A stretch of 64,000 bases of DNA from Kutzneria chonburiensis. Lineage in GTDB: Bacteria; Actinomycetota; Actinomycetes; Mycobacteriales; Pseudonocardiaceae. The DNA is taken from contig NZ_CP097263.1 of assembly GCF_028622115.1 (NCBI RefSeq), forward strand, positions 7,130,001 through 7,194,000. The letters run 5' to 3'. The position numbers and the translations under genes are program-made. Shown here piece after piece: positions 12,140 to 28,309 of this stretch; positions within the stretch are counted from its first letter, which is position 1; every line of letters starts with the position of its first letter. Below the pieces are notes generated by a model. That model was not told the DNA's origin. It saw only the letters and a program-made list of their open reading frames with translations, and ran no database searches.

Positions 12140-13414
12140 TCACACCCGCTCGGGGACGGGCATGTCGGCCGGCACCACGCAGTTCGGGTCGATCCGTGCG
12201 CCGGTCAGCGAAGCGCCGGCGCACACCGTGACCTCGTGCCCGATCGCGCTGTAGCCGTCCAGCGTGGTCACGGCGTCCGAAGTGGACTCGACCCGGGCCA
12301 TGACGCCGACGTGCGCGTGGATCACCCTGGCGTCCGGACCGACCACCGCGCCGTCCAGCACCGCCGAGCCGCGCACCTGGCACCGCGCGTGCAGGTCGAC
12401 ACCGTCGCCGATGTGGGAGTCGGCAACGACCACGCCCGGCTCGATCTCCACCTCACGGCCGATCAGCACGTTCGGGCCGATCCGGACCAGGCCGAACTCC
12501 AGCTTCTCGGCCAGCGTCATGCCGGTGATCGCGTCCCGCAGCCGCAGCGACGACTCGTGGATCCACACGTGGTCCCGGTAGCCCGGCCCCATTCGCTTGA
12601 GCAGGAAGGGATACTCGCCGGCCAGCGCGTCGGTGAGGGTGTCGAGGTAGTCCCGGGGGTTGCCGAGGTCGCCGATCTTGGCGATGCCCGCGGCCCGCAC
12701 CGGATAGCCGCGGTCGACCAGCCACGGCAACAGGTCGTGGCCCCAGTCCAGCCGGTCGCGCGCCATCGCGCGCATCGCCGGCGTCCGGGCCACTTCCCGC
12801 AGCCGCGCGCAGTCGATCAGGTACAGGCCCGCGTTGATCGGCACCCGGTTCGGGTCGCGGACGAGATCGAGCACACGGTCCAGCGGCGGCTTCTCCACGA
12901 ACCCGCGCAGCCGGCGGTCGGCGCTGGTCACCACGACCCCGTACTTGCCGGCGACCTCCGCCGCGGTGCGGTCGACGGTGCCGACCGTCACCAGTGCGCC
13001 GGCGGCGCGGTGCGCGCGGACCATCTCCCGCAGGTCGAACTCGAACAGCGAGTCGGTCGGGAACACCAGGGCCAGCCCGTCAAGGCCCCAGTGCTCGATG
13101 CTGGACAGCGTGGCCTCGCCGGACCCGGTGTTGTGCCGGTCCATCCGCGGCCGCGAGTATCGGACCCGGACCCCGAGGCCCTCCCCGTGCCCGATGGCCT
13201 CCTTCACCTGGTACCGGTTCTCCCGGCCGTTGGCGATCACGTAGAAGCTGCCGATGCCCTGCTCCTGCAACGCGATCACCTGCCATTCGACCAACGGCCG
13301 GCCCGCGAAGCACATCGCCGCCTTGCTGCGCTGGTACTCGCGGGCCTCCAGGGTCAGCGGCCGGGCACGCACGCCCTGGCCGCCCGCGAGCCCGATGCCG
13401 ACAACGCCGTCCAT
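12140..13414 (-). CDS. NDP-sugar pyrophosphorylase (GlgC/GlmU-like)
   Basis: The 424-residue enzyme begins with the nucleotidyltransferase signature GLAGGQGVRARPLT at residues 8-21 and ends in a left-handed beta-helix region (GPNVLIGREVEIEPGVVVAD and later hexapeptide-like repeats). It transfers NMP from an NTP to a sugar 1-phosphate, and the exact sugar is not clear. The middle (RMGPGYRDHVWIHESS) is not typical of classical GlgC. ATG 13414 follows AGGGG at 7-nt spacing. It is the last gene of the 16-gene minus-strand run, 13 bp after the phosphatase gene, and is followed by terminator hairpins. Confidence 0.82.
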   Translation of the reverse strand: MDGVVGIGLAGGQGVRARPLTLEAREYQRSKAAMCFAGRPLVEWQVIALQEQGIGSFYVIANGRENRYQVKEAIGHGEGLGVRVRYSRPRMDRHNTGSGEATLSSIEHWGLDGLALVFPTDSLFEFDLREMVRAHRAAGALVTVGTVDRTAAEVAGKYGVVVTSADRRLRGFVEKPPLDRVLDLVRDPNRVPINAGLYLIDCARLREVARTPAMRAMARDRLDWGHDLLPWLVDRGYPVRAAGIAKIGDLGNPRDYLDTLTDALAGEYPFLLKRMGPGYRDHVWIHESSLRLRDAITGMTLAEKLEFGLVRIGPNVLIGREVEIEPGVVVADSHIGDGVDLHARCQVRGSAVLDGAVVGPDARVIHAHVGVMARVESTSDAVTTLDGYSAIGHEVTVCAGASLTGARIDPNCVVPADMPVPERV

Positions 13415-13427
13415 GGTGCGACCCCTT

Positions 13428-14555
13428 TTACAAGTTGGGAGAATCCGGTTGCCACACCGGAACAAGCTGGCGCAGCAGCGCGACCATGGTGATGTCGTCG
13501 AACCGCTCCGCGGTGCCCACGTGCCCGCTGATCTCCCGGTCGAACCGGTCGAGCAGGTCCTCGGTCCCCGTGGTGTGCCCGCGGACGAGCGCGAGCATCC
13601 GTTCCTCGCTGAAGAACCGGCCGTGCTCGTCGCGGGCGTCGGTGACCCCGTCGGTGTACACGAACAGCAGGTCGCCGTGATCGAGCTGGGTGTGGTCCAG
13701 CTCGAACGTCGAGTCCGGCAGCAGGCCCAGCGCCGGGCCGGTCGGTCCCAACAGCTGGTGCGCACCGTCGGCGTTGCGCAGCACCGGCGGGTTGTGGCCG
13801 CAGTTGCTGAACACCAGCGCCCCGGTCGCCGGGTCGAGCACGGCGAAGAACAGCGTCGCGAAATACCCGTCACGCAGGTGGTTCGTGGTGAGGTAGTCGT
13901 TGGTGGCGTCGATCGCCCGCAGCAGCCAGGCCGTGTCGGACGGCTGCTCGGACTCGAAGGCCGCCGCGGTGTAGCGCAGCAGGCTGCGGATCAGCGCCAT
14001 GTACAGGGCGGCCCCGATGCCCTTGTCGCAGACGTCGGCGACGACCAGCCCGATCCGCTCCCCGCCCGGCAGCTCGAACACGTCGTAGAAGTCCCCCGAG
14101 ACCCCGCCGGCCGGCAGGAATCGCGCGTCGAGCTGCCAGCCGGACCGCACCGGCAGCACCTCGGGCAGGAAGCCGGCCTGGCTCTCGCGACCGGTACGGA
14201 ACTCCCGCCGGTACTTGCGCAGCGCGGTCCGGATGTCGATCTCCCGGACCGCGCCGGGCACCAGGAAGTTCACCGCGGACAACACGTTGGGCTCCTGGCC
14301 GGTGACATCGTCGGCGGTGAACGTGACGACCCGGGTGGATCTGTTGGTGCGCAAGGAGATCAGGCAGGCCCATTCCCGCACCAGTCTCACGTCGACCGAG
14401 GCGTCGGCGAGCACGAGTCCGGGGCTGTCCCCGATACCGTCCAACCGGCTCGGATCCACCAGCCGGACCGCGACACCGTTGTCGTCCAACAGTTCACGAA
14501 GCCGGTCGGTGATCGCCGAGCGCTTGCCGACCACCAGGATCAACTCGATTGCCAT
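13428..14555 (-). CDS. SpoIIE/RsbU-type PP2C phosphatase with receiver-like N-terminus
   Basis: Residues about 140-365 form a PPM phosphatase with the metal motifs GGVSGDFYDVF and VADVCDKGIGAALYMAL and the terminal DDITMVALL. This is the class that dephosphorylates STAS anti-sigma antagonists. The first 115 residues (IELILVVGKRSAITDRLREL) look like a receiver-type alpha/beta domain, but no clear phosphoacceptor pattern is visible. With the RsbW-like and two STAS genes just upstream it completes a partner-switching circuit: phosphatase, kinase/anti-sigma and antagonists. No cognate sigma factor is in this operon. Confidence 0.88.
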   Translation of the reverse strand: MAIELILVVGKRSAITDRLRELLDDNGVAVRLVDPSRLDGIGDSPGLVLADASVDVRLVREWACLISLRTNRSTRVVTFTADDVTGQEPNVLSAVNFLVPGAVREIDIRTALRKYRREFRTGRESQAGFLPEVLPVRSGWQLDARFLPAGGVSGDFYDVFELPGGERIGLVVADVCDKGIGAALYMALIRSLLRYTAAAFESEQPSDTAWLLRAIDATNDYLTTNHLRDGYFATLFFAVLDPATGALVFSNCGHNPPVLRNADGAHQLLGPTGPALGLLPDSTFELDHTQLDHGDLLFVYTDGVTDARDEHGRFFSEERMLALVRGHTTGTEDLLDRFDREISGHVGTAERFDDITMVALLRQLVPVWQPDSPNL

Positions 14556-14573
14556 GGACCACGCCCCATCGGT

Positions 14574-15008
14574 TCACACGGCGTGCTGCCGGAGCAGGAC
14601 CACCGTGGTGCGATTTCGGCCGTCGGCGTAGTCGTAGCTCATCGTGTCGACCACCGATCTGGCCAGGTACAGCCCCAGGCCGCCGGGCGCGCGTTCGGCC
14701 AGCGGTCGGTCCAGGTCGGCGGGAGCGGCGGCTCCGGTGGGATCGAACGGCGGCGCGGCATACGCCAGTCGCAGCCACGTGCGGTCCTGCTCGACCCCGC
14801 CCGCCAGCTCGATCTCCTTGGTCTCACCGTGGGTGACCACGTTGGCCACCAGTTCCTCCATGGCCAGTCGCAGCCGGTTGAACTGCCGCTCGGACAGGCC
14901 GGCCAGGCCGGCGGTGGTCCGGACGTACCGGACCACCGCGTCGAGCGAGTCGAGTTCGGCGACCAACGCGATCGGCTCGACGTGCCGGCTACTCGGGTAA
15001 CCGGTCAC
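14574..15008 (-). CDS. RsbW-like serine kinase/anti-sigma factor (HATPase_c)
   Basis: The 144-residue GHKL ATPase has the N-box MEELVANVVTHG near 50-61 and a G-box ERAPGGLGLYLARSVVDT near 105-123. These proteins sequester a sigma factor or other target and phosphorylate the partner STAS protein on Ser. Its first 20 bp overlap the end of the upstream STAS gene, so it is probably co-translated with it. The SpoIIE-type phosphatase follows 18 bp later. Confidence 0.88.
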   Translation of the reverse strand: MTGYPSSRHVEPIALVAELDSLDAVVRYVRTTAGLAGLSERQFNRLRLAMEELVANVVTHGETKEIELAGGVEQDRTWLRLAYAAPPFDPTGAAAPADLDRPLAERAPGGLGLYLARSVVDTMSYDYADGRNRTTVVLLRQHAV

Positions 15009-15309
15009 TGAACACCACGCTCTGGTGGAAGCCCACCAACCGGATCGTCTGCTCGACCGCGTCGTTCGCGCCGACCAGCACGATCTGCACCCCGTCGGCC
15101 ATCTTCTGGCGGGCGAAGACCAGCCCGCGCAGCCCCGCCGAGGACAGGTAGCTCAGCTCGGTCATGTCCAGCACCAGCTGGTCCAGCTCGGCCTCGGCCG
15201 CGCGTTCGACCTCTTCGCGGAAGACCCAGGCGGTCAGCGCGTCCAGCTCACCGGTGAGGGTGATCAGCGTGACCCCGCCGTTACGGCTCGAGATTGCGGT
15301 GAATGCCAT
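14989..15309 (-). CDS. STAS-domain anti-sigma factor antagonist
   Basis: The 106-residue single STAS domain has the strand-turn-helix DMTELSYLSSAGLRGLVFA, in which Ser56/Ser57 occupy the phosphorylation site of SpoIIAA/RsbV proteins. In the dephosphorylated state such proteins bind the anti-sigma kinase and release its target. ATG 15309 gives the conserved short N-terminus. The long frame extending further upstream is out of register with the glgX frame and is not coding. It overlaps the RsbW-like gene by 20 bp and is the second STAS gene of the operon. Confidence 0.87.
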   Translation of the reverse strand: MAFTAISSRNGGVTLITLTGELDALTAWVFREEVERAAEAELDQLVLDMTELSYLSSAGLRGLVFARQKMADGVQIVLVGANDAVEQTIRLVGFHQSVVFSDRLPE

Positions 15310-15320
15310 CGTTGCTCTCC

Positions 15321-17464
15321 TCAGTCCCTGTTCTCCGGTCGACGTCCGACCAGCACAACCGAAGCCCGGCCCGGCACCGTGGCCGACGAGTCGTCGTCGA
15401 GCAGCGGTTCCCGGCCGGGGAAGCTCACGTCGTCCGGCGACGCCGCGGAGGTGTCGGCGAACAGGTGCCAGCGGTGGCCGTCGGGCAGCGCCGGCAGCTC
15501 CACCGCGTGCCCCTCCCAGTGGGCGTTGGCCGCCACGTACACGAACTCGGGCTCGCCGTCCGGGCCCTGGCCCGTCCGCATCATCGCGAGCAGCCGGCTG
15601 GTCGGCGACCAGTCGGGCTGATAGGCCCTGCTTCCGTGCCAGCTCACGTCGGAGCTCTGCGCGCAGGCCACGTAGTCGCCGCACGGCTGGCGGCGGGCCC
15701 GCAGCATCGGGTGCGCGGCCCGGAACGCGATGCAGTTGCGCACGAACCGCAGCAGATCGGTGTTGCGGTCGACCAGGTTCCAGTCGAACCACGACAGCGG
15801 GCCGTCGTGGCAGTAGCCGTTGTTGTTGCCCAGCTGGGTGCGGCCGACCTCGTCGCCGGCCAGCAGCATCGGGATTCCCTGGCTGAGCAACAACAGCAGC
15901 AGCGCGTTGCGCTGCTGCCGGCCCGCAGCGCGAGCACGTCCTGGTCGTCGGTGGGGCCTTCGGCCCCGCAGTTCCAGCTGTTGTTGTCGTTGCCGCCGTC
16001 GCGGTTGCCCTCGCCGTTGGCCTCGTTGTGCTTGTCGTTGAAGGAGAACAGGTCGGCCAGGGTGAATCCGTCGTGCGCGGTGACGAAGTTGACCGACGCC
16101 AGCGCGCCCCGGTGCCGGTAGAGGTCGGGCGAGCCGACCATCCTGGTGGCCAGCTCGCCCACCGTGCCCTGGTCCCCCTTGAGGAACCGGCGCAGGGTGT
16201 CGCGGTACTTGCCGTTCCACTCCGACCAGTGCCTGGAGTTGCTGAAGTTGCCGACCTCGTAGAGGCCGCCGGCGTCCCACGCCTCGGCGATCAGCAGGCA
16301 GTCCTTGAGCAGCGGGTCGTAGGCCAGCGCCTCGGGCAGCGGCGGGTTGGTCAGCGGGGCGCCGTCGGGGCCACGGTCCAAAATGGACGCGAGGTCGAAG
16401 CGGAAGCCGTCGATGTGGTACTCGCCGGCCCAGTACCGCAGGCAGGACAGCACGAAGTCGCGGACGACCGGGTTGTTGCAGTTGAACGTGTTGCCGGTGC
16501 CGCTGAAGTTGTAGTAGTACCCCTCGGCCGTGAGCATGTAGTAGGTGCGGTTGTCCAGGCCGCGGAAGTGGATCGTGGGACCGTGCTCGTTGCCCTCCGC
16601 GGTGTGGTTGAACACCACGTCCAGCACCACCGCGATATCGGCGGCGTGCAGCTGCTTGACCAGGTTCTTGAACTCGTCGCACTGCATGCCGAACCGACCG
16701 GTCGCGGCGTAGCCCGCCTTCGGCGCGAAGAACCCGACCGTGGAGTAGCCCCAGTAGTTGTACAGCCGCTCGCCGGTCTCCGGGTTGAGCCGGCCGTTCT
16801 CGAACTCGTCGAACTCGAACACCGGCATCAGCTCGACGCAGTTGACGCCGAGCGCCTTGAGATAGGGGATCTTCTCGGCCAGCCCGGCGTAGGTGCCCGG
16901 CTGGTCCACCCCGGACGACGGGTCCCGGGTGAATCCGCGCACGTGCAGCTCGTAGACCACCAGGTCCTCGACCGGGATCCGGACCGGCTGGTCGCCCTCC
17001 CAGTCGAAGTCGTCGAACGTCAACCGGGACCGGTACATGTACTGGTCGTCCCAGTCCGGCTCGACGCCCCACACCGCCCGGCCCGACATCGACCGCGCGT
17101 ACGGGTCGGCCAGGATCTTGGTGGCGTCGAACCGGTCGCCGACCCGTGGCTGGGCCGGCCCCTGGATCCGGTAGCCGTACTCGACGTCCTCGTACTCGAG
17201 GTCGAACACGGTCATCGACCACACCCCGCCGACCCGGAACTCGTCGGGAAAGGGCAGCTCCGCCATGGGATCGCGCTCGCCGCGACGGAACAGCACCAGC
17301 GAGACCGCCTCCGCGCCGCGGGAGTACACCGAGAAGTTCACGCCGCCCGGCACGAACGTGGCACCGAAGGGCAGCGCGTGCCCAGGGCGGACGCCGTAGC
17401 CGTCGATCTGGTGCGTCGGGAACGAGTCGATCCGGTCCCGGATGACGTGACGGGGGGCGCTCAT
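15321..17464 (-). pseudogene. glgX: Glycogen debranching enzyme GlgX with a one-base frameshift
   Basis: From ATG 17464 the frame encodes GlgX (GH13_11 plus CBM48) with catalytic Asp in DGFRFDLASIL, the general-acid Glu in IAEAWDAGG and the later NFVTAHDGFTL. About residue 513, near 15918-15925, the frame is lost: it continues as a cysteine-rich nonsense run to 15644, while the family sequence (NALLLLLLSQGIPMLLAGDE) resumes in another frame and runs to 15321. One missing base in CCGGCCCG (15918-15925), expected CCGGGCCCG, restores a normal 714-residue enzyme. It is either a sequencing error or a real mutation losing the last 200 residues. ATGA overlap couples it to the upstream STAS gene. Confidence 0.85.
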
Positions 17465-17823
17465 GCCACACCACTGCGTTCCTGGCCGGCCGCGCTCAGC
17501 GCGCGCACGCCGTCGGCGAGGTTGTCCGCGATCACGAAGAACCGCAGGAAACCCGTGACGGACAACACCCAGCGCAGTTCCTCGGACAGCCCGACCAACG
17601 CCACCGAGCTGTTCACGCACTGCGCCTGCCGGTAGATCAGCAGCAGGATCCGCAGACCCGCGCTGGACACGTAGGTCACCCCGACCAGGTCGAACAGAAT
17701 CCGCTGCCGGATCGGCAGCAGCGGCAGGATCTTGTCCTTGGCGGCCGCCGCCGCGTGGCCGTCGAGCTCACCGACCAGGCTGATGACCGTCACCGAGGCG
17801 ACCGTGCGCTTCCTGATCTCCAT
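17461..17823 (-). CDS. STAS-domain protein (anti-sigma antagonist-like)
   Basis: The 120-residue STAS domain has FDLVGVTYVSSAGLRILLLI with candidate phosphoserines at 53/54. It differs clearly from the second STAS protein at 14989-15309, with a longer C-terminus and different helices, so the operon encodes two distinct antagonists. ATG 17823 is preferred over an upstream in-frame start, which would add a non-conserved Arg-rich tail. The start of glgX overlaps its stop by 4 bp, an unusual coupling of a regulatory protein with a glycogen enzyme. Confidence 0.85.
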   Translation of the reverse strand: MEIRKRTVASVTVISLVGELDGHAAAAAKDKILPLLPIRQRILFDLVGVTYVSSAGLRILLLIYRQAQCVNSSVALVGLSEELRWVLSVTGFLRFFVIADNLADGVRALSAAGQERSGVA

Positions 17824-17884
17824 TGTCTGCTCCAAACTCCCCCACTGGCGCCGGCGGCCGCGACGGTGCGGCCCCGGCATGGCC

Positions 17885-19693
17885 TCAGCTCGTCGGCACC
17901 AGGCGGACCCGGACCGACAGCGACTCCGTCGACTTCGGCAGCTCCACGGTCATCGCCCGCGCGTCGAACACCTCGTGCGGCTTGCCGTCCACGCTGACCT
18001 CCGCCAGCACGACACTGCCCGGCGGCAACAGGTCCGGCGCGACGCGCAGGGTGCGCGACGCGTCCGGACGCGGCTTGAAGTACAGGTCGAGCGGCTGCTT
18101 GGTGATGAGCAGGTTGGTGTACACGGCGGCCAGGTAACACAGCTCGGCCGAGTGGTACATGCTCATCGAGTGGCTGCCCTTGAGCCGCTCGGTGCCGAGC
18201 AGGTAGGGCATGCCGTCGGCCAGCACGTTGAAGTACACGCCGCCCTCGTCGTGGTCGAGGAAGAAGGTGTTGTAGAAGGCGGCGGCCTGCCGGCCCTGCT
18301 GGCGGTACTGGTCGCCGCCGAGCGAGCCGTAGAGGATCAGGTAGGCCAGGATCGCCTGTTCCTGCTGCCACCACGCCTTCCGGTCGTGCCAGGCGAACCG
18401 GTGCCAGTCCTGGCCGGGCGCCAGTATCCGCTCGACCACGTCGTACCAGCCGCCGCGCTGCTGGTCGCTGCCGACCGCGGGCATGATGGCCGCGATGTGC
18501 TCGGCCAGCCCCTGGTAGGACTGCTTCGGCTGCTGGGCGTGCATCCGCATCAGGTTCCAGGCGATCTTCAGGTTGTGCCCGACCACCGCCCGGTTCTGCT
18601 GCCAGCTGTGCCCGTGGTCGGGGTTCCAGTCGGTGTCGAACCGCTCGTTGACGAACGGGCTGCGGTCGTAGTCGGGGAACCGCCCCACGATCGTGTCGAA
18701 GGTGCGGGCCAGCATGTCGGCGTGCCGCTGCTCGCCGGTGGCCAGGAACAGGTTGATCAGGTACGCCGGCGCGTGGTCGCCGACCGAGTTCCAGTTCTTG
18801 CAGGACTTGTTGGGCCCCAACGACTCGTGGTGCGGGTCGAACGAGATCGGGTCGATGTGCGAGTAGTAGCCGCCGCCGTCGTGGTCGCGGAAGTGCTTCT
18901 CGAACAGGCGGAGCGTGGCGTCGGTGTCCGAGGCGATCCGGCGGTCCCCGGTGACGCGGAAGGTCTGCGTCGGGCCGGCCAGCGCGTAGATCTGCTCGTA
19001 CATCGGGACCGCGTCGTAGTCGTCGGCGAACTCCGAGGTGAACAGCTTCTTCTCGGCGCCGTCGTTGACCTCGATGCCGTGGTACCAGAACACCACGTCG
19101 TCGTCCGGGTCCACGCAGCGCATGTGGTCGCGCAGGTAGAGCGTGCCCCGCTCGGCCACGTCCAGGTAGTCGTCGTTGCCGGTCAGCAGGTAGGCCGACG
19201 CCATGCCGTAGACCATCCGGGAGATGGTGTCGGTCTCCTGGACGTGGCTGGTGGTCTTGCCGCCGCCCAGCCGGATCAGCGTGCGGTAGTCGCGGTAGTC
19301 GACCGCCCCGTCGCCGAACTGCGCGTGGCGGTAGAACCGGGCCAGCGAGTCGATCTGCCGGATCCACCAGTCGGGCTGCTCGAAGTTGTACTCGCCGACG
19401 GCGGCCCCGGGCAGCACAACGCGCTTGGCCTCGAACCGGTGCTGGCCGGCCTCCGGATAGAAGATGCCGGACACGAACAGGTGCCGGCCGGGCGTGAGCG
19501 CGCCGGCCAGGTCCGCGCCCTGGTACGGCTCGTCCAGGTTGCGCAGCAGCTCCGCGGCCACATCGCTGCCCAGCGTGATGTCGAACCGCCGGCCGTCGAT
19601 GGTCTCCAACTCGAAGTCGCGGCCGTCCGACGGACCCGCGGTGATCACGCCGGCGATGGTGTCGGAGAACGGGAAGTGCATCGCCTCAGACAT
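17885..19693 (-). CDS. AGE-family epimerase/isomerase-like (alpha/alpha)6-barrel protein
   Basis: The 602-residue protein has an N-terminal beta-rich extension (about 1-100) and a long helical region with repeated aromatic motifs (WNSVGDHAPAYLINLFLATG, RKAWWQQEQAILAYLILYG, HSMSMYHSAELCYL) typical of N-acylglucosamine 2-epimerase/cellobiose epimerase barrels. A small beta domain closes the C-terminus. It is longer than simple AGE epimerases (about 400 residues), so it may be a distinct subfamily acting on an oligosaccharide or a keto-sugar. Its start overlaps the preceding DJ-1 gene by 8 bp. The role in sugar isomerisation is inferred. Confidence 0.7.
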   Translation of the reverse strand: MSEAMHFPFSDTIAGVITAGPSDGRDFELETIDGRRFDITLGSDVAAELLRNLDEPYQGADLAGALTPGRHLFVSGIFYPEAGQHRFEAKRVVLPGAAVGEYNFEQPDWWIRQIDSLARFYRHAQFGDGAVDYRDYRTLIRLGGGKTTSHVQETDTISRMVYGMASAYLLTGNDDYLDVAERGTLYLRDHMRCVDPDDDVVFWYHGIEVNDGAEKKLFTSEFADDYDAVPMYEQIYALAGPTQTFRVTGDRRIASDTDATLRLFEKHFRDHDGGGYYSHIDPISFDPHHESLGPNKSCKNWNSVGDHAPAYLINLFLATGEQRHADMLARTFDTIVGRFPDYDRSPFVNERFDTDWNPDHGHSWQQNRAVVGHNLKIAWNLMRMHAQQPKQSYQGLAEHIAAIMPAVGSDQQRGGWYDVVERILAPGQDWHRFAWHDRKAWWQQEQAILAYLILYGSLGGDQYRQQGRQAAAFYNTFFLDHDEGGVYFNVLADGMPYLLGTERLKGSHSMSMYHSAELCYLAAVYTNLLITKQPLDLYFKPRPDASRTLRVAPDLLPPGSVVLAEVSVDGKPHEVFDARAMTVELPKSTESLSVRVRLVPTS

Positions 19694-20303: not shown

Positions 20304-20312
20304 GGCCGTCCC

Positions 20313-21938
20313 CTAGTTGGTCACGAGGTCGATGAGGAAGGGACCGTCGTGGGCCAGCATCTGCTCGACGGCCGGCTCGACCTCGCCGGGCTTGTCCACC
20401 CGCACGGCGGCGACGCCGTGGCCGCGGGCGATGTCGACGAAGCCGATCTCCGGGTGCGACAGGTCGAACGATCGCGGGAAGCCATGCCTCGTGATCTCAC
20501 GTTCCCGCCAGTACTGCGCGATGTTCTCGTTGAGCAGTCCGTAGCTGTGGTTGTTGCACACCACGAACTTCGCGTCGATGCCGTGCCGAACGGCGGTGGC
20601 CAGCGCCTGGATCGTGTACATGCTGCCGCCGTCGCCGGTGAAGCCGATCACGGTCTTGTCCGGCATGGCCAGCTTGATGCCGACCGCGCCGGGAATGCCG
20701 ACCCCGAGCGAGCCGCCGCGGGTGGCGAACCAGCGCCGTGGCCGGGCCGCCCGCAGGTACTCGCCGATCGCCGGCGACGAGGTGAGCGCCTCGTCGAAGA
20801 CGATCATGTCCGCCGGCCCGCGCTCGGCCAGCGTGCGGGCGAACGTCGCCAGCATCGAGCCGTCGTCGGGCGCGGGCGTGGTCTCGGCGGCCCGCTGCCG
20901 CAGCCGGTCCACGGCGGCGATGCGGTCGTCCTCGGTGAGCACCCGGTCCAGCTCGCCGGCCAAGGCGTCCAATGTGGACTTCGGATCGGCCACCAGCCCG
21001 AGTGCCACCGGATGGTTCTTGGCGATCTCGTAGGCGTCCAGGTCGATGTGCACGATCCGGGCGTCCCGGCGGAACGGGTTCTCCAGCGCGGGGAACACCT
21101 CAGGGAACAGGTACGTGCCCACCACCAGCACCGCGTCGGCTTCGCGCACCGCCGCCGTGCTGACCTCGCCGAACATGTGCCCCAGCTGGCCGCGCCAGAG
21201 CGGGTGGCGGGTGTCGAAGTCCGCCTCCGCGAACTCGACGCCCCACACGTCCGCGCCGAGCAGTTCGGCCACCCGGGTCAGCTCCGGCTGCGCCTCCGAC
21301 ACCGACACGCCGTCGCCGATCAGCACGATCGGCCGCCGTGCGCCGGCCAGCAGCTCGCCCGCGCGCTTGACCAGACGGGGCACCGGCACCGTCTGGGTGT
21401 GCGGGAAATGCGTCGGCACAACGGGTTCGGTGTTCGGCGCGTCGAGCACGTCCATCGGCAGCGCGACGAACACCGGACCGCGCGGCGGCGTCATCGCGAT
21501 CTTCAGGGCCCGCCGCAGCACCCGCAGCACCGAGTTCGGATCGGTGACCCTGGTCGCGTACTTCGTCACCGGACGGGCCATGGCCACCAGGTCGGCCGCC
21601 ATCTGGGCGTCCATCGCCTCGTACCGCACGCCCGACTCGCCGGCGACCACCACCAGCGGGGTGTGGCCGCGCTTGGACTGGTAGAGCATGCCGATGGCGT
21701 TGCCGAGCCCGACGCCGCTGTGCAGCTGGAGCAGCGCGGGGCCGCCGGTCGCCCGGGCGTAGCCGTCCGCGATGCCCGCGGCGACGGTCTCCTGGAGGGC
21801 CAGGATGTAGTGGAAGCCGTCGAACTTCTCCAATTCGTCGAGAAAACCCTGCTCGACCGTTCCCGGATTGCCGAACATGTAGCTCAGCCCGTCGGCGAGG
21901 AACTGTTCGATGATCGCCGTCTTGCCCAGTCTGGCCAC
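20313..21938 (-). CDS. ThDP-dependent enzyme, benzoylformate decarboxylase-like
   Basis: The 541-residue enzyme has the ThDP-activating Glu50 (ILALQETVAAGIADGYARAT), QLHSGVGLGNAIGML at 71-85 matching the active-site His motif of benzoylformate decarboxylase, and the cofactor motif GDGGSMYTIQALATAV ending in NN near 435-462. Like MdlC it should decarboxylate a 2-keto acid to an aldehyde or ligate two carbonyls. It lacks clear acetolactate-synthase FAD features. Adjacent GMC oxidoreductases and DJ-1 proteins suggest carbonyl chemistry on a small alcohol, aldehyde or keto acid. ATG 21938 gives the typical N-terminus. Confidence 0.87.
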   Translation of the reverse strand: MARLGKTAIIEQFLADGLSYMFGNPGTVEQGFLDELEKFDGFHYILALQETVAAGIADGYARATGGPALLQLHSGVGLGNAIGMLYQSKRGHTPLVVVAGESGVRYEAMDAQMAADLVAMARPVTKYATRVTDPNSVLRVLRRALKIAMTPPRGPVFVALPMDVLDAPNTEPVVPTHFPHTQTVPVPRLVKRAGELLAGARRPIVLIGDGVSVSEAQPELTRVAELLGADVWGVEFAEADFDTRHPLWRGQLGHMFGEVSTAAVREADAVLVVGTYLFPEVFPALENPFRRDARIVHIDLDAYEIAKNHPVALGLVADPKSTLDALAGELDRVLTEDDRIAAVDRLRQRAAETTPAPDDGSMLATFARTLAERGPADMIVFDEALTSSPAIGEYLRAARPRRWFATRGGSLGVGIPGAVGIKLAMPDKTVIGFTGDGGSMYTIQALATAVRHGIDAKFVVCNNHSYGLLNENIAQYWREREITRHGFPRSFDLSHPEIGFVDIARGHGVAAVRVDKPGEVEPAVEQMLAHDGPFLIDLVTN

Positions 21939-21969: not shown

Positions 21970-22797
21970 TTACCAGCCGAAGCGGCGCAGGCCGTTCTCC
22001 AGGACCTCGATGACCTTCTGCCCGGTCAGCACGGAGTCCGGCGTGGAACGGCCCGTGATGAACGGGTAGTCCACGATGACCGACGTCTCCTTGCCGAAGT
22101 TGCCGATATAGCGGCCGTCCGGACCGGTGGCGTCGCGCAGGATGTACTCCAGCGGGTACGGCGGCGGCCCCATGTTGAAGTCGACCACCCCGACGAATCC
22201 GGTGCCGTCCTTGTAGTCGTACTCCTTGCAGTGCCCGGTCACGCGTTTGCCGCGGATCAGGCTCTCCCTCGTCTCCCAGTCGCGGGCGAAGGCGAGGCAG
22301 GCCACGCCGTAGCACTCGGCCGCCACCGGCTTGTCCGACCGGAGGAAGGCCATGATCAGCGCGTGCACCCGCTCGTTGTTGGCCAGGTCGACGATCGGTC
22401 CGGAGCCACCGACGATCAGCAGCGCGTCGTACTCGGCGATGTCGGTGAGGACCTTGTCCAGCTCCCGGTGGTAGGACTCCAGGTGCCGCAGGTAGTTCTC
22501 GTCGGCGGTGTACGGGCGCTCCGGCAGCCACGCGGCCAGGCTGATCGGGGTGGCCAGCCGGGCGGACTCGTCGACGTCGCGGACCAGCTGGGCCATCTCC
22601 GCGGTGGTGACGGAGCGGCCGAGCGGCGGGTCGATGTAGTCCGGGTCCATGCTCGGCGGTAACGCGCGCGGCTGTTTGCCACTCGGGGTGGCGAACACGA
22701 CGCGGTATCCCCGGTCGTCGAACTGGACCAGCGGGCCGACCAGTTCCTCACCCCAGTACCCGTATTCGGAAAGGACCACGAGGACCTGTTTTGTCAC
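21970..22797 (-). CDS. DJ-1/PfpI-like class I glutamine amidotransferase-fold protein
   Basis: The 275-residue protein starts KQVLVVLSEYGYWGEELVGP and carries the elbow AAECYGVACLAFA with Cys162. A GGSGPIVDLANNE loop lies near 130-142, the pattern of Hsp31-like DJ-1 proteins with a longer cap. GTG 22797 is chosen because GGGAG lies 5 nt upstream and a conserved beta-strand follows directly. The frame extends upstream but is not conserved-looking. It precedes the ThDP gene by 31 bp and belongs to a different subfamily from the other DJ-1 protein in the operon. Confidence 0.78.
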   Translation of the reverse strand: MTKQVLVVLSEYGYWGEELVGPLVQFDDRGYRVVFATPSGKQPRALPPSMDPDYIDPPLGRSVTTAEMAQLVRDVDESARLATPISLAAWLPERPYTADENYLRHLESYHRELDKVLTDIAEYDALLIVGGSGPIVDLANNERVHALIMAFLRSDKPVAAECYGVACLAFARDWETRESLIRGKRVTGHCKEYDYKDGTGFVGVVDFNMGPPPYPLEYILRDATGPDGRYIGNFGKETSVIVDYPFITGRSTPDSVLTGQKVIEVLENGLRRFGW

Positions 22798-22861
22798 GAC
22801 AACTCCCGGGAGAAGTAGGGCGGTGTGAACAATGAATCGCGCCTCGAACGGCCGGATTTCG

Positions 22862-23569
22862 TCACGGCGTTTCCGGGCCGATGACCCAGTCCTCGCGGGC
22901 GACAAGGGAGAACACGTACTTCGGGTCGACCAGCTCGTCCAGCGCGGGCTTCACCCGCGTGGTGAAGTACGGCCCGGTCAGCGCCGCGCGCAGCGCCTCG
23001 ACGTCGTCGAACCACAGCTGCTCGACGCTGTCGAAGGGCGCCTCGCCGAAAACGTATGCGCCGTCCCTGGTGTGGCACTGGAGGTAACGGCGCAGGCCGG
23101 GCAACCTGCTCGCGTTCGCCGAATAGGTGCCGAGAAGTCGCTGCCGGTACTCGGCCAGCGCCAGGCCGGGCCGGCGCTTGAGCAGCATCGTCAGCTTGAC
23201 CCAGTCCGGGTGCCGGTCGTTGCGTGGCGGCCCGGCGAACACGGTGTGGGCGGTGGTGTCCAGCACGATGCTGGACCAGAACGCGGCCCAGTTCGGCTCG
23301 TCGGCCCTGGCGCCCTGTAGGAACTCCTCGGTCTGCAACGAGGCCAGCTGCTCCTGCTCGTTCTCCAGCCAGATCTCGGCGACGCCCTGGTGCGGCAGCA
23401 CCGGGTCGCCCATGTCCCCCTCGTACGGTATGCGGGAGTCGATCAGGTACCGCTTGATCTGCGGGATCTTGCTCGCGTACTTCACGGCGTGCACGTTGAG
23501 CCAGTAGTCCTGGAACTCCTCGGCGGTCCACCCCGGTTTCGGGGCGCCGAAGATGAACTGGTGGATCAT
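22862..23569 (-). CDS. EthD-domain protein, tandem dimeric alpha-beta barrel
   Basis: The 235-residue protein contains two ferredoxin-like EthD/DABB repeats: residues about 1-110 (PGWTAEEFQDYWLNVHAVK) and about 120-225 (PGLALAEYRQRLLGTYSANA). EthD-fold proteins include cyclases, decarboxylases and ether-degradation accessory proteins and usually act without cofactors. Its start precedes the GMC oxidoreductase gene on the coding strand's upstream side: the GMC start is upstream and GMC1's stop overlaps this ATG by 4 bp, so the two are translationally coupled. A role as pathway enzyme in the oxidative cluster is inferred. Confidence 0.8.
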   Translation of the reverse strand: MIHQFIFGAPKPGWTAEEFQDYWLNVHAVKYASKIPQIKRYLIDSRIPYEGDMGDPVLPHQGVAEIWLENEQEQLASLQTEEFLQGARADEPNWAAFWSSIVLDTTAHTVFAGPPRNDRHPDWVKLTMLLKRRPGLALAEYRQRLLGTYSANASRLPGLRRYLQCHTRDGAYVFGEAPFDSVEQLWFDDVEALRAALTGPYFTTRVKPALDELVDPKYVFSLVAREDWVIGPETP

Positions 23570-25155
23570 CGCGTGCTCTCCCCGTTACGGATGAAGTCGG
23601 CCGCCCGCTCACCGATCATGACGACGGTGGTGTGCGGGTTGGCCGACACGATCGACGGCATGACCGAGGCGTCGGCCACCCGAAGTCCTTCCACACCACG
23701 GACCCTGAGCTGGGGATCGACCACGGCGAGGTGGTCGACACCCATCCGGCAGGAGCCGGCGAAGTGGTAGTACGAGCCGGTGTTGGCTCGCACCCATGCC
23801 TTGAGTTCCTTGCGGGACTTGACGTCCGGCCCCGGCGCGAGCTCCTGGAGGTCGTAGCGCTCGCGGAAGGCCTTGCTGGCGTAGATGTCCCGTGCGACCT
23901 GCACCATCGTGGTGGCGGCCTCGAGGTCGACGGGCTCGGCGTAGTAGTTGGCACTGATCCTCGGGTGCACGGTCGGATCGTCCTTGGCCAGCCGCACCCA
24001 GCCCCGCGACAGCGGGCGCACCAGCCCGGGCAGGCTCAGGATCACCCGGGGATCGACCAGGTCGGTGACGTCCTGGAGCGGCTGGCCGGTCTGCACGCGC
24101 TTGATCACGTTGGCGAAGAAGTTCTCCCCGAACGGCGCGCGGTGCACCATGCAGATCTCCATGTCCGGCACGGCAAGCCCGGGCACCGAGCCCCAGAACA
24201 GCGCCGCCTCGGTGACGTTGCCGAGCGGATCCGGCGGCGGCTCCGACAGGTAGCCGATCGGCCCGATGATCAACGGGTGGTCGTGGAAGTTCTCGCCGAC
24301 GCCGGGCAGCGCCACCCGGACCGGGATGCCGATCTCGGCCAGGTGGTCGGGATTGCCGATGCCCGAGAGCATCAGCAGCTTGGGCGACTGGATGGCGCCG
24401 GCGCTGACGATCACCTCCCGCGCGGCCCTGACCGTGATGGTCTGCCCGCCCCGCAGGTACTCCACGCCGACGCAGCGCCGGTTCTCCAGCACCAGCCGGC
24501 CGACGAGCGCGCCGGCCAGCAGGGTCAGGTTGGACCGGCGCAGCGCCGGTTCGAGATAGCCGGCCCTTGCCCCGCAACGACGTCCGTCCGCGATGTCGAC
24601 GTGCTGCCAGCCCGCGCCGAACATGTCCACGTTGAAATCGTCGACCGTCGGATAGCCCAGCTCCGCGCAGGCGTCGAGAAACACCTGGGACACGGGGTTT
24701 CCGGTGTGCTTGGCGCTGATCACGTTGATCGGGCCGTCGTGGCCGGCGGTCGGGTTGGTGTCGTCCCGCTGGTTCTCCAGCCGTTGCAGGAACGGCAGCA
24801 CCTCGTCGGCCGACCAGCCGGTGGCGCCGCCGTAGGCCCACGAGTCGTAGTCGGCGCGGCGGCCCCGGGTGTGGATCATGTGGTACACGTTCGACGTGCC
24901 GCCGGGGCCCCGGCCGGCGGCCGAGTACACCTGGGAACCGCGCAGGCCGGGCTGAGGCTCGCTCATGTATGCCCAGTCCAACTCGGTCAGCAGCACCTCG
25001 TTCCACCGGGTCGGATCGGTGACGGTGTCGCCGATGCGCGGGTCGCCCTCCTCCAGCACCAGCACGGTGACGTCGGGGTCCTCGGTGAGCCGGTTGGCGA
25101 TGACCGAACCGGCCGTGCCACCGCCCACGATGATGTAGTCGAATGTTTCGGTCAT
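23566..25155 (-). CDS. GMC-family FAD oxidoreductase 1
   Basis: The 529-residue flavoenzyme has the N-terminal dinucleotide motif GGGTAGSVIANRL at 11-23, the GMC signature region GRGPGGTSNVYHMIHTRG and the second signature GAIQSPKLLMLSGIG. Active-site elements lie in YYHFAGSCRMG and SANPHTTVVMIGERAADFI. Members oxidise alcohols such as choline, glucose and aryl alcohols to aldehydes or acids with oxygen or another acceptor. ATG 25155 gives the standard N-terminus. It lies 14 bp after the second GMC gene, from which it is clearly diverged, so the two probably act on different substrates or form a pair. Confidence 0.92.
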   Translation of the reverse strand: MTETFDYIIVGGGTAGSVIANRLTEDPDVTVLVLEEGDPRIGDTVTDPTRWNEVLLTELDWAYMSEPQPGLRGSQVYSAAGRGPGGTSNVYHMIHTRGRRADYDSWAYGGATGWSADEVLPFLQRLENQRDDTNPTAGHDGPINVISAKHTGNPVSQVFLDACAELGYPTVDDFNVDMFGAGWQHVDIADGRRCGARAGYLEPALRRSNLTLLAGALVGRLVLENRRCVGVEYLRGGQTITVRAAREVIVSAGAIQSPKLLMLSGIGNPDHLAEIGIPVRVALPGVGENFHDHPLIIGPIGYLSEPPPDPLGNVTEAALFWGSVPGLAVPDMEICMVHRAPFGENFFANVIKRVQTGQPLQDVTDLVDPRVILSLPGLVRPLSRGWVRLAKDDPTVHPRISANYYAEPVDLEAATTMVQVARDIYASKAFRERYDLQELAPGPDVKSRKELKAWVRANTGSYYHFAGSCRMGVDHLAVVDPQLRVRGVEGLRVADASVMPSIVSANPHTTVVMIGERAADFIRNGESTR

Positions 25156-25169
25156 GGTTGGCCGGCCTC

Positions 25170-26720
25170 TCAGTCGCGGCCCGCGCTGATCATGTCCGCG
25201 GCTTTCTCGGCGATCATGATGGTCGCGGCGTTGGTGTTGCCACTGGTGATCGTGGGCATGATCGAGGCGTCCGCGACGCGCAACCCGGCGACGCCGTGCA
25301 CCCGCAGGGCGGAATCCACCACCGCCTCGCGATCCTTGCCCATCTTGCAGGTGCCGACGGGATGCCAGACGGTCGATGCGCTCTCCCGCACATAGCGCAC
25401 GAGCCCGGCCCGGTCCCGCACCTCGTCGCCCGGCGCGAGCTCGCGGCCGCGGAACGGGGCGAAGGCCTTGGCGCCGACCAGTTCCCGCGCCAGCGAAATC
25501 GCGTCGACCAGCACGTCGAGGTCGGCCGAGCACTCCAGGTAGTGCGGGTCGACCACGACCAGGTCGGCCGGGTCCTTCGAGCGCAGCGTCACCGTGCCCC
25601 GGCTCTGCGGGCGGGCCAGGATCGGCGCGAAGGTGAACGCCGGCCCGTCGATCCGGTACGTCTCGTCGACGTACTGGATGGGGCCGAAGAAGAACTGGAG
25701 GTCCGGCGACGCGGCTTCGCACCGCGGCCTGGTATGCGTGAACAGGCCCGCCTCCGCGAGCAGCTGTGGGAACTTCTGCTCGCGCCTGCTCTCGTAGCCG
25801 ACCCCGAACAGCAGGTGGTCCTGGAGGTTGCGGCCGACGCCGGGCAGGTCGACCACGGCCCGGATGTTGTTGTCCCGCAGGTGCTCCACCGGACCGATGC
25901 CGGAAAGCATCAGCAGCTGGGGCGACGCGAACGCGCCGCAGGCGAGTATCACCTCACCGTCCACTGTGGCCCGTTGCAGCAGGCCGTCGCGGACGTACTC
26001 GACGCCGAACGCCCGCCCGCCCTCGATCAACACCCGGCAGGCCCGCGCGCCGGTCAGCACGGTCAGGTTCGGGTTGGCCAGCACCGGCCGCAGGTAGGCA
26101 TCCGCCGTGCTGCACCGGCGATCGCGGTCGTACCGCGCCGACTGGTAGAAGAACGCGCCCTCGTCCTGCCACGCGCCGTTGTAGTCCTGGCCGGCGGCCC
26201 CGAACCCGAGTTCCTCGGCCGCGGCGACGAACGCCTGCGACACCTCGGACGGCTCCGGGTAGGAGATCACCCGCAGCGGGCCGCCGACGCCACGGTACTC
26301 GGAGGCGCCGCCGTCGAAGTCCTCGGAACTCCTGAAGTACGGCACCACATCCCGGTGGGACCAGCCCTCGTTGCCCAGGTAGTTCCAGTGGTCGAAGTCC
26401 AGCCGGTTGCCCCGGACGTGCATCATGGCGTTGACGGAGCTGCCGCCGCCGAGCACCTTGCCCTGCGGGACGGGAATGGTCCGTCCGTTCAGGTTCGGCT
26501 GCGGCGTGGTGACGTGCGGCCAGGTCACGTCCGCGTTGCCCCACAACGAGGTCATCGATCCGATGTCGGTACGGTGCACCGCGTCGGCGTAGTCGGGACC
26601 GCCGGCCTCCAGTACCAGGACCCGGCAGTCCGACCCGTCGACCAGGCGTCGCGCGAGGACGGACCCGGCAGTGCCCGCGCCGACGACGACGTAGTCGTAG
26701 GCGCCGTGGTTGTCCATCAT
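25170..26720 (-). CDS. GMC-family FAD oxidoreductase 2
   Basis: The 516-residue enzyme has VVVGAGTAGSVLARRL at 11-26, GGGSSVNAMMHVRGN (first GMC signature), GAFASPQLLMLSGIG (second) and the active-site stretches STVWHPVGTCKMG and TSGNTNAATIMIAEKAADMI, giving the usual His/Asn pair. It is closest in appearance to choline or alcohol dehydrogenase-like GMC enzymes. ATG 26720 follows AAGGG at about 5-nt spacing. A 67-bp gap with a GC-rich hairpin (26739-26755) separates it from the Nif11-domain genes, the largest gap in the operon. Confidence 0.92.
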   Translation of the reverse strand: MMDNHGAYDYVVVGAGTAGSVLARRLVDGSDCRVLVLEAGGPDYADAVHRTDIGSMTSLWGNADVTWPHVTTPQPNLNGRTIPVPQGKVLGGGSSVNAMMHVRGNRLDFDHWNYLGNEGWSHRDVVPYFRSSEDFDGGASEYRGVGGPLRVISYPEPSEVSQAFVAAAEELGFGAAGQDYNGAWQDEGAFFYQSARYDRDRRCSTADAYLRPVLANPNLTVLTGARACRVLIEGGRAFGVEYVRDGLLQRATVDGEVILACGAFASPQLLMLSGIGPVEHLRDNNIRAVVDLPGVGRNLQDHLLFGVGYESRREQKFPQLLAEAGLFTHTRPRCEAASPDLQFFFGPIQYVDETYRIDGPAFTFAPILARPQSRGTVTLRSKDPADLVVVDPHYLECSADLDVLVDAISLARELVGAKAFAPFRGRELAPGDEVRDRAGLVRYVRESASTVWHPVGTCKMGKDREAVVDSALRVHGVAGLRVADASIMPTITSGNTNAATIMIAEKAADMISAGRD

Positions 26721-26787
26721 GCATCCCTTCGGAACTCTCGGCCGTGCGGCGGCCGCGGCCCCACCACCGCGACCGCCAGGTATGCGC

Positions 26788-27084
26788 TCAGATCAGGTTC
26801 TTCTCCTCGAGGCTCGGGATGAGGTCGACCACCACGTACTCCAGGTAGGTCTTGCCCCACATCACGTGCCAGAGCGGGAACGTCGAGTCGAACTGCTCGC
26901 CGCGCTCCTGCGCGAGCCGCATCTCCAGGTCCCAGACCAGCGTGTTGAAGTCGTTCTCGCTGAACGGAAGCCCGAATCCGGCGGCCGCCGCGAGGACCTC
27001 GTGCTTGCTCCGGGCCTTGAGGCTGTCCAGCACCCCCGGCCGGCCCGCGACCGTGCGCAGGAACTCGATCACGTTGTCGGTCAT
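26788..27084 (-). CDS. Nif11-domain protein B
   Basis: The 98-residue protein has a Nif11-like helical domain at about residues 3-46 (VIEFLRTVAGRPGVLDSLKA, then VLAAAAGFGLPFSENDF) and a C-terminal segment LWHVMWGKTYLEYVVVDLI at 71-89. The same segment, as LWRDMWGRPYLDYVV, occurs in the neighbouring Nif11 protein A. It has no cysteine and no Gly-Gly cleavage site, so it does not look like a standard Nif11-type RiPP precursor. ATG 27084 overlaps the stop of gene A. A carrier, chaperone or substrate-presenting role is possible but unproven. Confidence 0.72.
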   Translation of the reverse strand: MTDNVIEFLRTVAGRPGVLDSLKARSKHEVLAAAAGFGLPFSENDFNTLVWDLEMRLAQERGEQFDSTFPLWHVMWGKTYLEYVVVDLIPSLEEKNLI

Positions 27085-27407
27085 GCCGCCGCCAGCCGCA
27101 GCAGTGACCGGATCTCCTTGTCGGTGTGACGCGCGATCACGTGCCCGACGACGTAGTCGAGGTAGGGCCGGCCCCACATGTCGCGCCACAGGCTGCTGTT
27201 GCCGTCCACCGCCTCGCCGTCCTTGGCCACGATGATGTTGATCTCCAGCTGGCCGACCACCGCGGTCACGTCCTCGGCGGTGAAGTCGAAGCCGTCGTTC
27301 TTGGCGTGGAACAACAGCTGTCCGAGATCGCGCCGGCCGTAGCGGGCCGACATCGCGGCATCGGAGCGCACCGCGGTCAGGAAGGCCAGGAAGCTCTCCG
27401 CCGACAT
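27081..27407 (-). CDS. Nif11-domain protein A
   Basis: The 108-residue paralogue of the next gene has a Nif11-like domain at 2-47 (AESFLAFLTAVRSDAAMSAR, then GFDFTAEDV) followed by a linker and the shared motif LWRDMWGRPYLDYVVGHVI at 73-91, then a helical basic tail. No cysteines, no Gly-Gly site and no Ser/Thr/Cys-rich core are present. ATG 27407 lies 5 bp after the hydrolase stop and its own stop overlaps gene B by 4 bp, so the pair is made in similar amounts. Confidence 0.72.
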   Translation of the reverse strand: MSAESFLAFLTAVRSDAAMSARYGRRDLGQLLFHAKNDGFDFTAEDVTAVVGQLEINIIVAKDGEAVDGNSSLWRDMWGRPYLDYVVGHVIARHTDKEIRSLLRLAAA

Positions 27408-27412
27408 GCCCG

Positions 27413-28309
27413 CTACCGCATCGGGTTCTTGGCGAAGAAGGCCTGCACGGCCTCGCCGACCGCGAACGGGTTCATGATCTGCATGCCGTGACTGGCGCCG
27501 ATGATGCCGGCCCGCTCCGCCTGCGGCAGCCAGTCCAGCAGGAACCGCTGGGTCTCCCGGAAGCCGGGCATCGCGGCCTCGCTGTCCTGGCCCATCACGG
27601 CCAGCACCGGCATGGTCGGCTTGTTCTTCACCATCGCGTCGGCCTCGGACATCCGGAACGACCAGCCGCCCAGCGCCGGGAAGTCCACGCCGAAGGTCAC
27701 GTCGGCGCACTGCTCGACCTTCTCCCAGGTGTCCAGTGGGCAGGTCGTGTCGACCGACGCGAGGTAGCTCGGGCCGCAGACGTCGGCCATGAACTGGGTC
27801 GCGGCCGCCCGCTTGTCACCCTTCTTGTACAGCTCGAACGCGCTGGTGATGGCGTCCATGTTGGCCTTGACGCCGGCCTCGCTCTCGCGCGGCAGGTACG
27901 GCTCCAGCAGCACGGCGGTGTGCGCGCGCTCCGGGTAGGACAGGAGGAACTGGAAACCGACGACGCCGCCGAAGGAGTAGGCGATCACATGCGCCTTGTC
28001 GATGCCGAGGTGGTCGAGCACCTGCTTGGCGTGCTCGGCGCTCTCCTCGATGCTCAGGCTGTCCTTCTCCAGCGTGCTGCCGCTGTAGCCGGCCCGGTGG
28101 TAGCTGATGAACTGGTAGCGCTCCAGCAGCTCCGGGTAGAAGCGGAGCAGCGGCGTGACCAGGCCGTCGGCGATGGACGTGCAGTGGATCAGGAGGACCG
28201 GCTCCCCCTTGCCCAGCACGGTGTACTCCAGCTCAGCATTGTTGACCTTGACCCGCTTGTCGTGCTCGATCTTCCATTCGCGGCCGAGATAAAGCGTGTT
28301 GCTGGTCAT
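27413..28309 (-). CDS. Alpha/beta hydrolase
   Basis: The 298-residue alpha/beta hydrolase has an oxyanion region VLLIHCTSIAD, the nucleophile elbow AYSFGG (Ala replaces the first Gly of GxSxG), a likely acid in GQDSEAAMPG and a catalytic His in GASHGMQIMNP. Substrate class is unknown; esterase, lactonase or C-C hydrolase are possible. ATG 28309 is chosen because GAAAGG lies 7-8 nt upstream; an in-frame ATG 39 bp earlier lacks such a site. It is the first gene of the 16-gene minus-strand run and follows a TTGACA-containing palindrome. Confidence 0.85.
   Translation of the reverse strand: MTSNTLYLGREWKIEHDKRVKVNNAELEYTVLGKGEPVLLIHCTSIADGLVTPLLRFYPELLERYQFISYHRAGYSGSTLEKDSLSIEESAEHAKQVLDHLGIDKAHVIAYSFGGVVGFQFLLSYPERAHTAVLLEPYLPRESEAGVKANMDAITSAFELYKKGDKRAAATQFMADVCGPSYLASVDTTCPLDTWEKVEQCADVTFGVDFPALGGWSFRMSEADAMVKNKPTMPVLAVMGQDSEAAMPGFRETQRFLLDWLPQAERAGIIGASHGMQIMNPFAVGEAVQAFFAKNPMR

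Follow-up and report, generated by a model that had tools for sequence, protein, structure and literature searches.

The window analyzed here is the whole stretch of 64,000 nucleotides at positions 7130001–7194000 of the 10.41 Mb genome of Kutzneria chonburiensis. It carries a run of sixteen genes, all on the minus strand, from position 28309 down to 12140 (table 1). With the starts as chosen, five of the 15 junctions are overlaps of at most 20 bases (Nif11A/Nif11B, GMC2/EthD, DJ-1b/AGE, STAS1/GlgX, and STAS2/RsbW), and the widest gap, of 67 bases, separates Nif11B from GMC1. These coordinates bear out the original prediction of sixteen minus-strand genes with gaps of at most 67 bp, and its domain calls were reproduced by Pfam for all sixteen proteins, the two Nif11 matches being weak. 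The run, which would be transcribed as an operon, is probably one conserved and horizontally moving functional unit of two modules, that is, an icfG-type carbon-reserve module and a module for carbonyl or sugar processing. Module 1 would comprise DJ-1b, AGE, STAS1, GlgX, STAS2, RsbW, and SpoIIE. Module 2 would comprise the hydrolase, Nif11A and Nif11B, GMC1, GMC2, EthD, DJ-1a, and the thiamine diphosphate (ThDP) enzyme.

Table 1. Coordinates of the sixteen genes and the upstream palindrome in the window, with the basis of each assignment (AGE-anchored loci are defined in the text; L056, L058, L060, and L140 are related stretches of other genomes)
Feature	Position	Strand	Basis
Palindrome AAGTACGGCCCGTACTT overlapping TTGACA	28445..28465 (palindrome 28449-28465; TTGACA 28450-28445)	-	Sequence
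Alpha/beta hydrolase (hyd)	27413..28309	-	Pfam Abhydrolase_1; homologue of 67-69% at the same place in L056/L058, 55% in Gemmobacter L140
Nif11-type protein A, predicted all-helical, C-terminal WxxMWG	27081..27407	-	Pfam Nif11 22.9 bits (below cut-off); alignment; AlphaFold2
Nif11-type protein B	26788..27084	-	Pfam Nif11 20.6 bits (below cut-off); WxxMWG common to A
GMC oxidoreductase 1	25170..26720	-	Pfam GMC N and C; below every NCBIfam cut-off among the matches listed
GMC oxidoreductase 2	23566..25155	-	Pfam GMC N and C; closest solved structures choline dehydrogenase/oxidase
EthD-domain protein	22862..23569	-	Pfam EthD; TIGR02118 above cut-off
DJ-1 superfamily protein a (ThiJ-like), GTG start	21970..22797	-	Pfam ThiJ_like; 85/109 AGE-anchored loci
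ThDP enzyme, closest to benzoylformate decarboxylase, GTG start	20313..21938	-	Pfam TPP N/M/C; PDB 6a50; 85/109 AGE-anchored loci
DJ-1/PfpI-type protein b	19686..20303	-	Pfam DJ-1_PfpI; 95/109 AGE-anchored loci
AGE-family sugar epimerase/isomerase, extra N- and C-terminal beta parts	17885..19693	-	Pfam GlcNAc_2-epim; fold match of predicted model
STAS protein 1 (anti-sigma-antagonist type), SSAG motif	17461..17823	-	Pfam STAS; motif in relatives
glgX debranching enzyme, frameshifted near 15,92x	15321..17464	-	Pfam CBM48 and alpha-amylase; frames aligned to L058
STAS protein 2, SSAG motif	14989..15309	-	Pfam STAS; start and stop verified
RsbW-like serine kinase, GTG start	14574..15008	-	Pfam HATPase_c_2; N-box pattern in 75/75 relatives
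SpoIIE/PP2C phosphatase	13428..14555	-	Pfam SpoIIE 152 bits; ADVCDKG in 74/75 relatives
NDP-sugar (nucleoside diphosphate sugar) pyrophosphorylase-like, hexapeptide C-terminus	12140..13414	-	Pfam NTP_transferase; likewise 3′ of SpoIIE in L058/L060

The icfG operon of Synechocystis extends from slr1852 to slr1862, and two papers assign slr1855 to an N-acetylglucosamine 2-epimerase, slr1857 to an isoamylase/GlgX, slr1856 and slr1859 to anti-sigma antagonists, slr1860 to the phosphatase IcfG, and slr1861 to a kinase (PMC12329169, PMC8670252). Read in locus-tag order, these are AGE, STAS, GlgX, STAS, SpoIIE-type, and RsbW-type genes, which is nearly the order of the window, where AGE, STAS, GlgX, STAS, RsbW, and SpoIIE lie in one co-directional run. 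The last two are exchanged, since phosphatase precedes kinase in the cyanobacterium, whereas RsbW precedes SpoIIE in the actinomycete. The likeness rests on gene names and order and not on a comparison of protein sequences. Compared with the icfG operon, the window adds the hydrolase, the Nif11 pair, the GMC pair, EthD, DJ-1a, the ThDP enzyme, and the NDP-sugar pyrophosphorylase. The earlier statement that the gene set matches no pathway has therefore to be given up for the AGE–STAS–GlgX–STAS–RsbW–SpoIIE part, which matches the icfG operon in names and near order, but it stands for the half with the hydrolase, Nif11, GMC, EthD, DJ-1a, and ThDP genes, for which no matching pathway was found. 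Mutants of the icfG operon are described as having growth defects dependent on carbon and glucose (PMC12329169, PMC8670252). In the window module, GlgX would debranch glycogen or another alpha-glucan and the AGE enzyme would epimerize a sugar so released.

The arrangement of the window is repeated in other genomes. Actinoplanes sp. KI2 (Micromonosporaceae; L058) has all 16 genes with order and strand unchanged, and Nonomuraea spiralis (Streptosporangiaceae; L060) likewise has 15 of them, lacking the hydrolase. A contig of a metagenome-assembled genome (L056) shows 12 out of 12 genes in the order and strand of the window as far as the contig end. Between Nif11B and GMC1, L056 and L058 have an additional frame of 334 aa. 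On a plasmid of the alphaproteobacterium Gemmobacter aquarius (L140), 13 of the 16 genes are matched, including the hydrolase and the Nif11 pair; the STAS match is the tail of the AGE protein, and no STAS1, RsbW, or SpoIIE match was found in the stretch. The plasmid pNsp_a of Nostoc sp. ATCC 53789 (L146), of which 18 kb was covered, matches nine genes, that is, the Nif11 pair, the GMC pair, EthD, DJ-1a, ThDP, DJ-1b, and AGE (the latter with 35% identity to the window protein). No match to GlgX, STAS, RsbW, or SpoIIE was found in these 18 kb, which end within the second GMC gene.

Co-inheritance was also examined in a class sample of 394 evenly sampled genomes. Eight genomes, that of the window included, contain the ThDP enzyme (E ≤ 1e-100), and these eight are also the ones that contain AGE (E ≤ 1e-60), so that neither was found alone at these limits; in the other seven, both lie inside one 20 kb stretch. 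Within the family, the AGE query was present in 19 out of 200 genomes, again counting the window's own.

Gene content was then counted over 109 non-duplicate AGE-anchored loci, which are made up of 22 from the family (including a second copy in the genome of K. chonburiensis), 75 from named genomes (five duplicates dropped from the best 80 of at least 583 relatives' stretches), and 12 from plasmids. Counts come from tblastn with identity floors, some loci are shortened by contig ends, and the STAS2 count includes AGE tails. GlgX was found in 103 loci, STAS2 in 99, DJ-1b in 95, DJ-1a and ThDP in 85 each, RsbW in 75, STAS1 and SpoIIE in 73 each, GMC2 in 45, EthD in 31, the pyrophosphorylase in 19, GMC1 in eight, Nif11A and Nif11B in five each, and the hydrolase in three; the percentages are biased upward, because the loci are anchored on AGE and are its most similar relatives, being the most similar portion of a larger set. 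The glucan/AGE side, to which the original interpretation gave no role, is thus the most conserved part of the unit.

These distributions bear on the alternative that a polysaccharide block and an oxidative block came to adjoin by chance. The icfG half is found without Nif11 and GMC1 in most of the 109 loci, and the Nif11/GMC half without GlgX and RsbW in the Nostoc stretch, as chance adjacency would allow. Gene order and co-occurrence, however, reject it as an extremely improbable explanation, with sixteen genes in order in Actinoplanes, 15 in Nonomuraea, and matches to 13 on the plasmid of an alphaproteobacterium. The claim of the original prediction that the genes belong together is upheld by order, strand, and co-occurrence in relatives; as for the test it had proposed, a search for homologues lacking the other genes, the outcome opposes chance adjacency, although the two halves are also found apart.

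Many actinomycetes carry the unit, whole or in part, as do plasmids of Deinococcus, Runella, Streptomyces, Nostoc, and Gemmobacter, and AGE genes are located on plasmids across five phyla. The AGE of the window shares 72–75% identity with those of L057, L058, and L060 (Actinoplanes/Nonomuraea) versus 65% with the other copy in K. chonburiensis. A tree of 43 AGE sequences places the window copy with the same three (support 88/87, under the star limit of the tool), and the second copy with two copies of the same genus, one of them from Kutzneria sp. 744 (100/100). The identities, the tree, and the plasmid distribution therefore suggest that the window copy was acquired horizontally. Several plasmid copies, that is, L136, L137, L142, and L145 of Streptomyces and L144 of Runella, are flanked by GlgE-type, maltokinase, GlgB, TreS, or glycogen synthase genes, and phosphoglucomutase is a further glucan gene found next to plasmid copies. 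This ties the cassette to alpha-glucan and trehalose metabolism.

The regulatory genes form a kinase, STAS substrates, and a PP2C phosphatase with intact motifs of the RsbV/RsbW/RsbU type. In switches of this type, SS is the phosphorylation site of the STAS proteins. Motif counts were taken over 115 related stretches, duplicates included. Among relatives of STAS1, SS is kept at the site in at least 71 of 77. Of 88 STAS2 relatives, at least 47 show SS and at least 28 show AS, and since the latter carry Ala for the first Ser of SSAG they may escape phosphorylation. The N-box pattern is found in 75 of 75 RsbW relatives and the G-box pattern in 57; SpoIIE relatives show GDFYD and ADVCDKG in 74 of 75 each and YTDG in 53. 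The complete phosphatase–kinase–STAS switch that had been proposed from the window is consequently confirmed at the level of motifs, which the window proteins share with most relatives. In such a switch, the RsbW-like kinase would phosphorylate the STAS proteins, the SpoIIE phosphatase would take the phosphate off, and the STAS proteins would switch partners.

What the switch acts upon is the point where readings diverge. One alternative is an ordinary sigma-factor partner switch, in which RsbW would be an anti-sigma factor whose sigma partner is encoded at another locus, and the enzymes would form the adjoining regulon; we consider it a serious contender, at somewhat below an even chance. It is favored by the icfG literature, since Slr1861, reported as the kinase of Ssr1600, Slr1856, and Slr1859, was proposed as an anti-SigC factor on the basis of RNA polymerase holoenzyme analysis and modeling (PMC12329169). 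IcfG is reported to dephosphorylate Slr1856 and not Slr1859 (PMC12329169, PMC8670252). The genome of K. chonburiensis could supply a target, as Pfam places Sigma70_r2 at 75 sites, the nearest at 7124018–7124212, ~18 kb past the 3′ end of the run and outside the window. On the other side, the unit itself contains no sigma gene, because a sigma-70 region-2 profile found no frame within the sixteen-gene run; this profile was built on 20 domains of the same genome and distant sigma factors may escape it. Its sole frame in the window is at 60006–62105 (+), ~33 kb from the 5′ end of the run, and among 116 related stretches a single one was positive (L135, ~7 kb from AGE). A target sigma factor encoded together with the switch was thus not found, and no sigma gene is named among the icfG members either in the available text (PMC12329169, PMC8670252). 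The AGE–STAS fusions described below also argue against this alternative, as they point to contact with an enzyme. We infer that the switch controls the sugar enzymes directly or else a sigma factor in trans.

A structural model of the AGE protein was predicted (mean predicted local distance difference test score, pLDDT, 81.6). The predicted fold resembles that of cellobiose and glucose 2-epimerases (3wkf and 8h1l; template modeling score 0.72–0.74 on the target), at 17–18% identity and with extra N- and C-terminal beta parts in the window protein. Its GHN motif aligns by profile with the GHN of 8h1k, and the His of this GH motif is presumably catalytic. By predicted fold and motif, the protein belongs to the AGE superfamily.

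Relatives from other phyla show in some cases a STAS-like tail on AGE, which is not a feature of 3wkf or 8h1l. There are 33 AGE frames longer than 660 aa, and 17 of them are long through a C-terminal STAS-like tail, as judged by the length of the open reading frame (ORF) and by the tail (13 named cyanobacterial loci, L138, L139, L140, and L128). A Pfam STAS scan covered the tails of L138, which scored 41.3 bits, and L140, which was unsupported at the limit used, the remaining 15 being judged by length and tail. Fifteen other long AGE frames were rejected as fusions, their N-terminus having been over-extended by crude ORF calling. In L109, L118, L131, L138, and L139, the AGE–STAS gene adjoins a fusion of response regulator and thioredoxin reductase and a cyclic-nucleotide-binding histidine kinase. 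Fused response regulator–glutaredoxin–thioredoxin reductase genes are present in 66 of the 115 stretches (e.g., L132 12531–14192 and L138 14492–16150), and this suggests a redox input to the unit. A tentative and rather unlikely extension is that the switch has an enzyme as its output in place of a sigma factor, with STAS as a detachable regulatory subunit of AGE and/or GlgX gated by the kinase and phosphatase, and with a carbon-reserve cassette, spread on plasmids from phylum to phylum, having gained a Nif11–GMC–ThDP pathway in which the Nif11 proteins are enzyme partners.

Besides the upward bias of the counts, several observations weigh against a single two-module unit. The Gemmobacter plasmid has a different gene order, and its Nif11, GMC, and EthD genes run in the opposite direction. 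Module 2, complete or minus the hydrolase alone, is present in just five other loci (L056, L058, L060, L140, and L146), and among 83 actinobacterial loci seven have no ThDP match in the stretch (13 have none for RsbW and 14 none for SpoIIE). The AGE model is of low confidence at residues 419–425, 428–439, and 480–509, and the best NCBIfam score of the protein, 23.7 bits versus a cut-off of 600, places it far from characterized epimerases. None of the 13 cyanobacterial AGE–STAS loci has an RsbW or SpoIIE match in the stretch, and hence the STAS part of the fusion may now have another partner or none; its SS site is TT or TA in 11 of the 13. Finally, glgX of the window is frameshifted. It is divided into two frames, with the C-terminal part following a one-base shift at ~15,92x (reference Actinoplanes sp. 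KI2), its length is not divisible by 3, and a 12-pair hairpin (15920–15894) lies beside the shift site. This is either a frameshifted gene or a sequencing error; the glgX frames are open in L058, L060, and L061, and a second glgX of the same genome is located in a related cluster at ~9.25 Mb (L036).

In Module 2, a carbonyl or sugar-derived compound would be processed by oxidation with flavin adenine dinucleotide and by ThDP-dependent decarboxylation or carboligation. The closest PDB match of the ThDP enzyme is 6a50, a benzoylformate decarboxylase. The window enzyme belongs to the same ThDP family as 6a50 and others and keeps the catalytic Glu and the first His (LHS), but the second catalytic His is not in place. 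Its score of 325 bits lies below the NCBIfam equivalog cut-off of 493 for this activity. The NCBIfam scan, which covered 10 of the 16 proteins, reached no equivalog cut-off among the matches listed; the EthD protein passes the subfamily model TIGR02118. DJ-1a is closest to the plant DJ-1 homolog D and DJ-1b to PfpI-type deglycases, and both may guard against reactive carbonyls.

For the Nif11 pair, a role as precursor peptides in a cluster for a ribosomally synthesized and post-translationally modified peptide (RiPP) or another natural product has to be considered. Such precursors have a leader with a cleavage site of the GG type, followed by a core that contains Cys and can be modified. In Nostoc, the annotation of the copies reads "Nif11-like leader peptide family natural product precursor", and a KS-AT (ketosynthase–acyltransferase) polyketide synthase gene is found in 18 of the 115 related stretches (three of the 18 being duplicates; Pfam on one), among them the second cluster of the same genome, which it adjoins at ~9.26 Mb (L036 16700–19990, −). 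The proteins themselves point elsewhere. Nif11A scores 27.4 bits against the TIGR03798 cut-off of 32.3 and Nif11B gives no match, and both also remain under the Pfam Nif11 cut-off of 23.8 bits. Neither protein has a Cys or a GG, and the C-terminal part is conserved and helical. WxxMWG, common to A and B, is invariant in 11 of 11 aligned sequences; the alignment excludes Nif11A of L060, for which only a short frame had been called. The AlphaFold2 model of Nif11A is confidently all-helical over its full length (mean pLDDT 89.3), and a fold search with it returned no PDB match at E ≤ 0.001. On scores, motif, helical model, and the absence of Cys and GG, Nif11A and Nif11B are rejected as RiPP precursors, so that a natural-product cluster of this kind is very improbable. 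Searched in the 394 class genomes, Nif11A gave two credible matches, both in K. chonburiensis, and a weak one that contains a stop codon; out of 72,556 plasmid records two were positive (Gemmobacter and Nostoc), both beside the same genes. Most likely, Nif11A and Nif11B would be folded proteins that work together with the GMC enzymes.

A different function for the whole locus would be a defence island against carbonyl stress or desiccation, whose enzymes merely detoxify by-products of glucan turnover. The two DJ-1 proteins, with DJ-1b closest to PfpI deglycases, the GlgE/TreS neighbors of relatives, and a copy from Gloeocapsopsis dulcis, a cyanobacterium of desert rock, are consistent with it. 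We regard it as unlikely, as it leaves the joint keeping of two GMC enzymes, EthD, and ThDP unexplained, and the icfG operon of Synechocystis is described as repressed by salt (PMC8670252).

Upstream of the first gene, the palindrome AAGTACGGCCCGTACTT with TTGACA is present as had been described, but it is not conserved in relatives. It is absent from the examined upstream DNA of L056 (~130 bases), L058 (~186 bases), and L060, and an operator at this place is thus unsupported. Its sequence is found nowhere else in the genome as an exact match, and it is one among 31 perfect palindromes with 8-base arms (spacer 0–5) in the window. In favor of a promoter, ACTTGAC precedes the first gene of the run in L058 and L060 as well as in the window, though not in the short L056 stretch; it is a possible −35 element shared by the three. 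A promoter scan gave no site versus 1.2 expected from shuffles, and a terminator scan gave four terminator-like sites versus 4.8 expected. At the other end of the run, a DDE_5 (IS701-like) transposase gene (10098–12047, +) converges on its 3′ end, and a cytochrome P450 gene (9095–10555, +) lies nearby. A related transposase family was seen in 38 of the 115 stretches.

No description of the combined unit was found in the open-access literature, searched mostly at the level of title and abstract. One half of the unit represents an icfG-type module outside the cyanobacteria, and the genes of the other half are conserved together and have no known product, with a pathway of the GMC pair, EthD, ThDP, and DJ-1 common to members of three phyla. 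The icfG operon has been described for Synechocystis, and its kinase proposed to control a sigma factor (PMC12329169, PMC8670252). The lack of a nearby sigma gene and the AGE–STAS-like fusions make direct control of sugar enzymes by a partner switch a testable question, and Nif11-domain proteins of this kind gain a conserved enzymatic context unlike that of peptide natural products.

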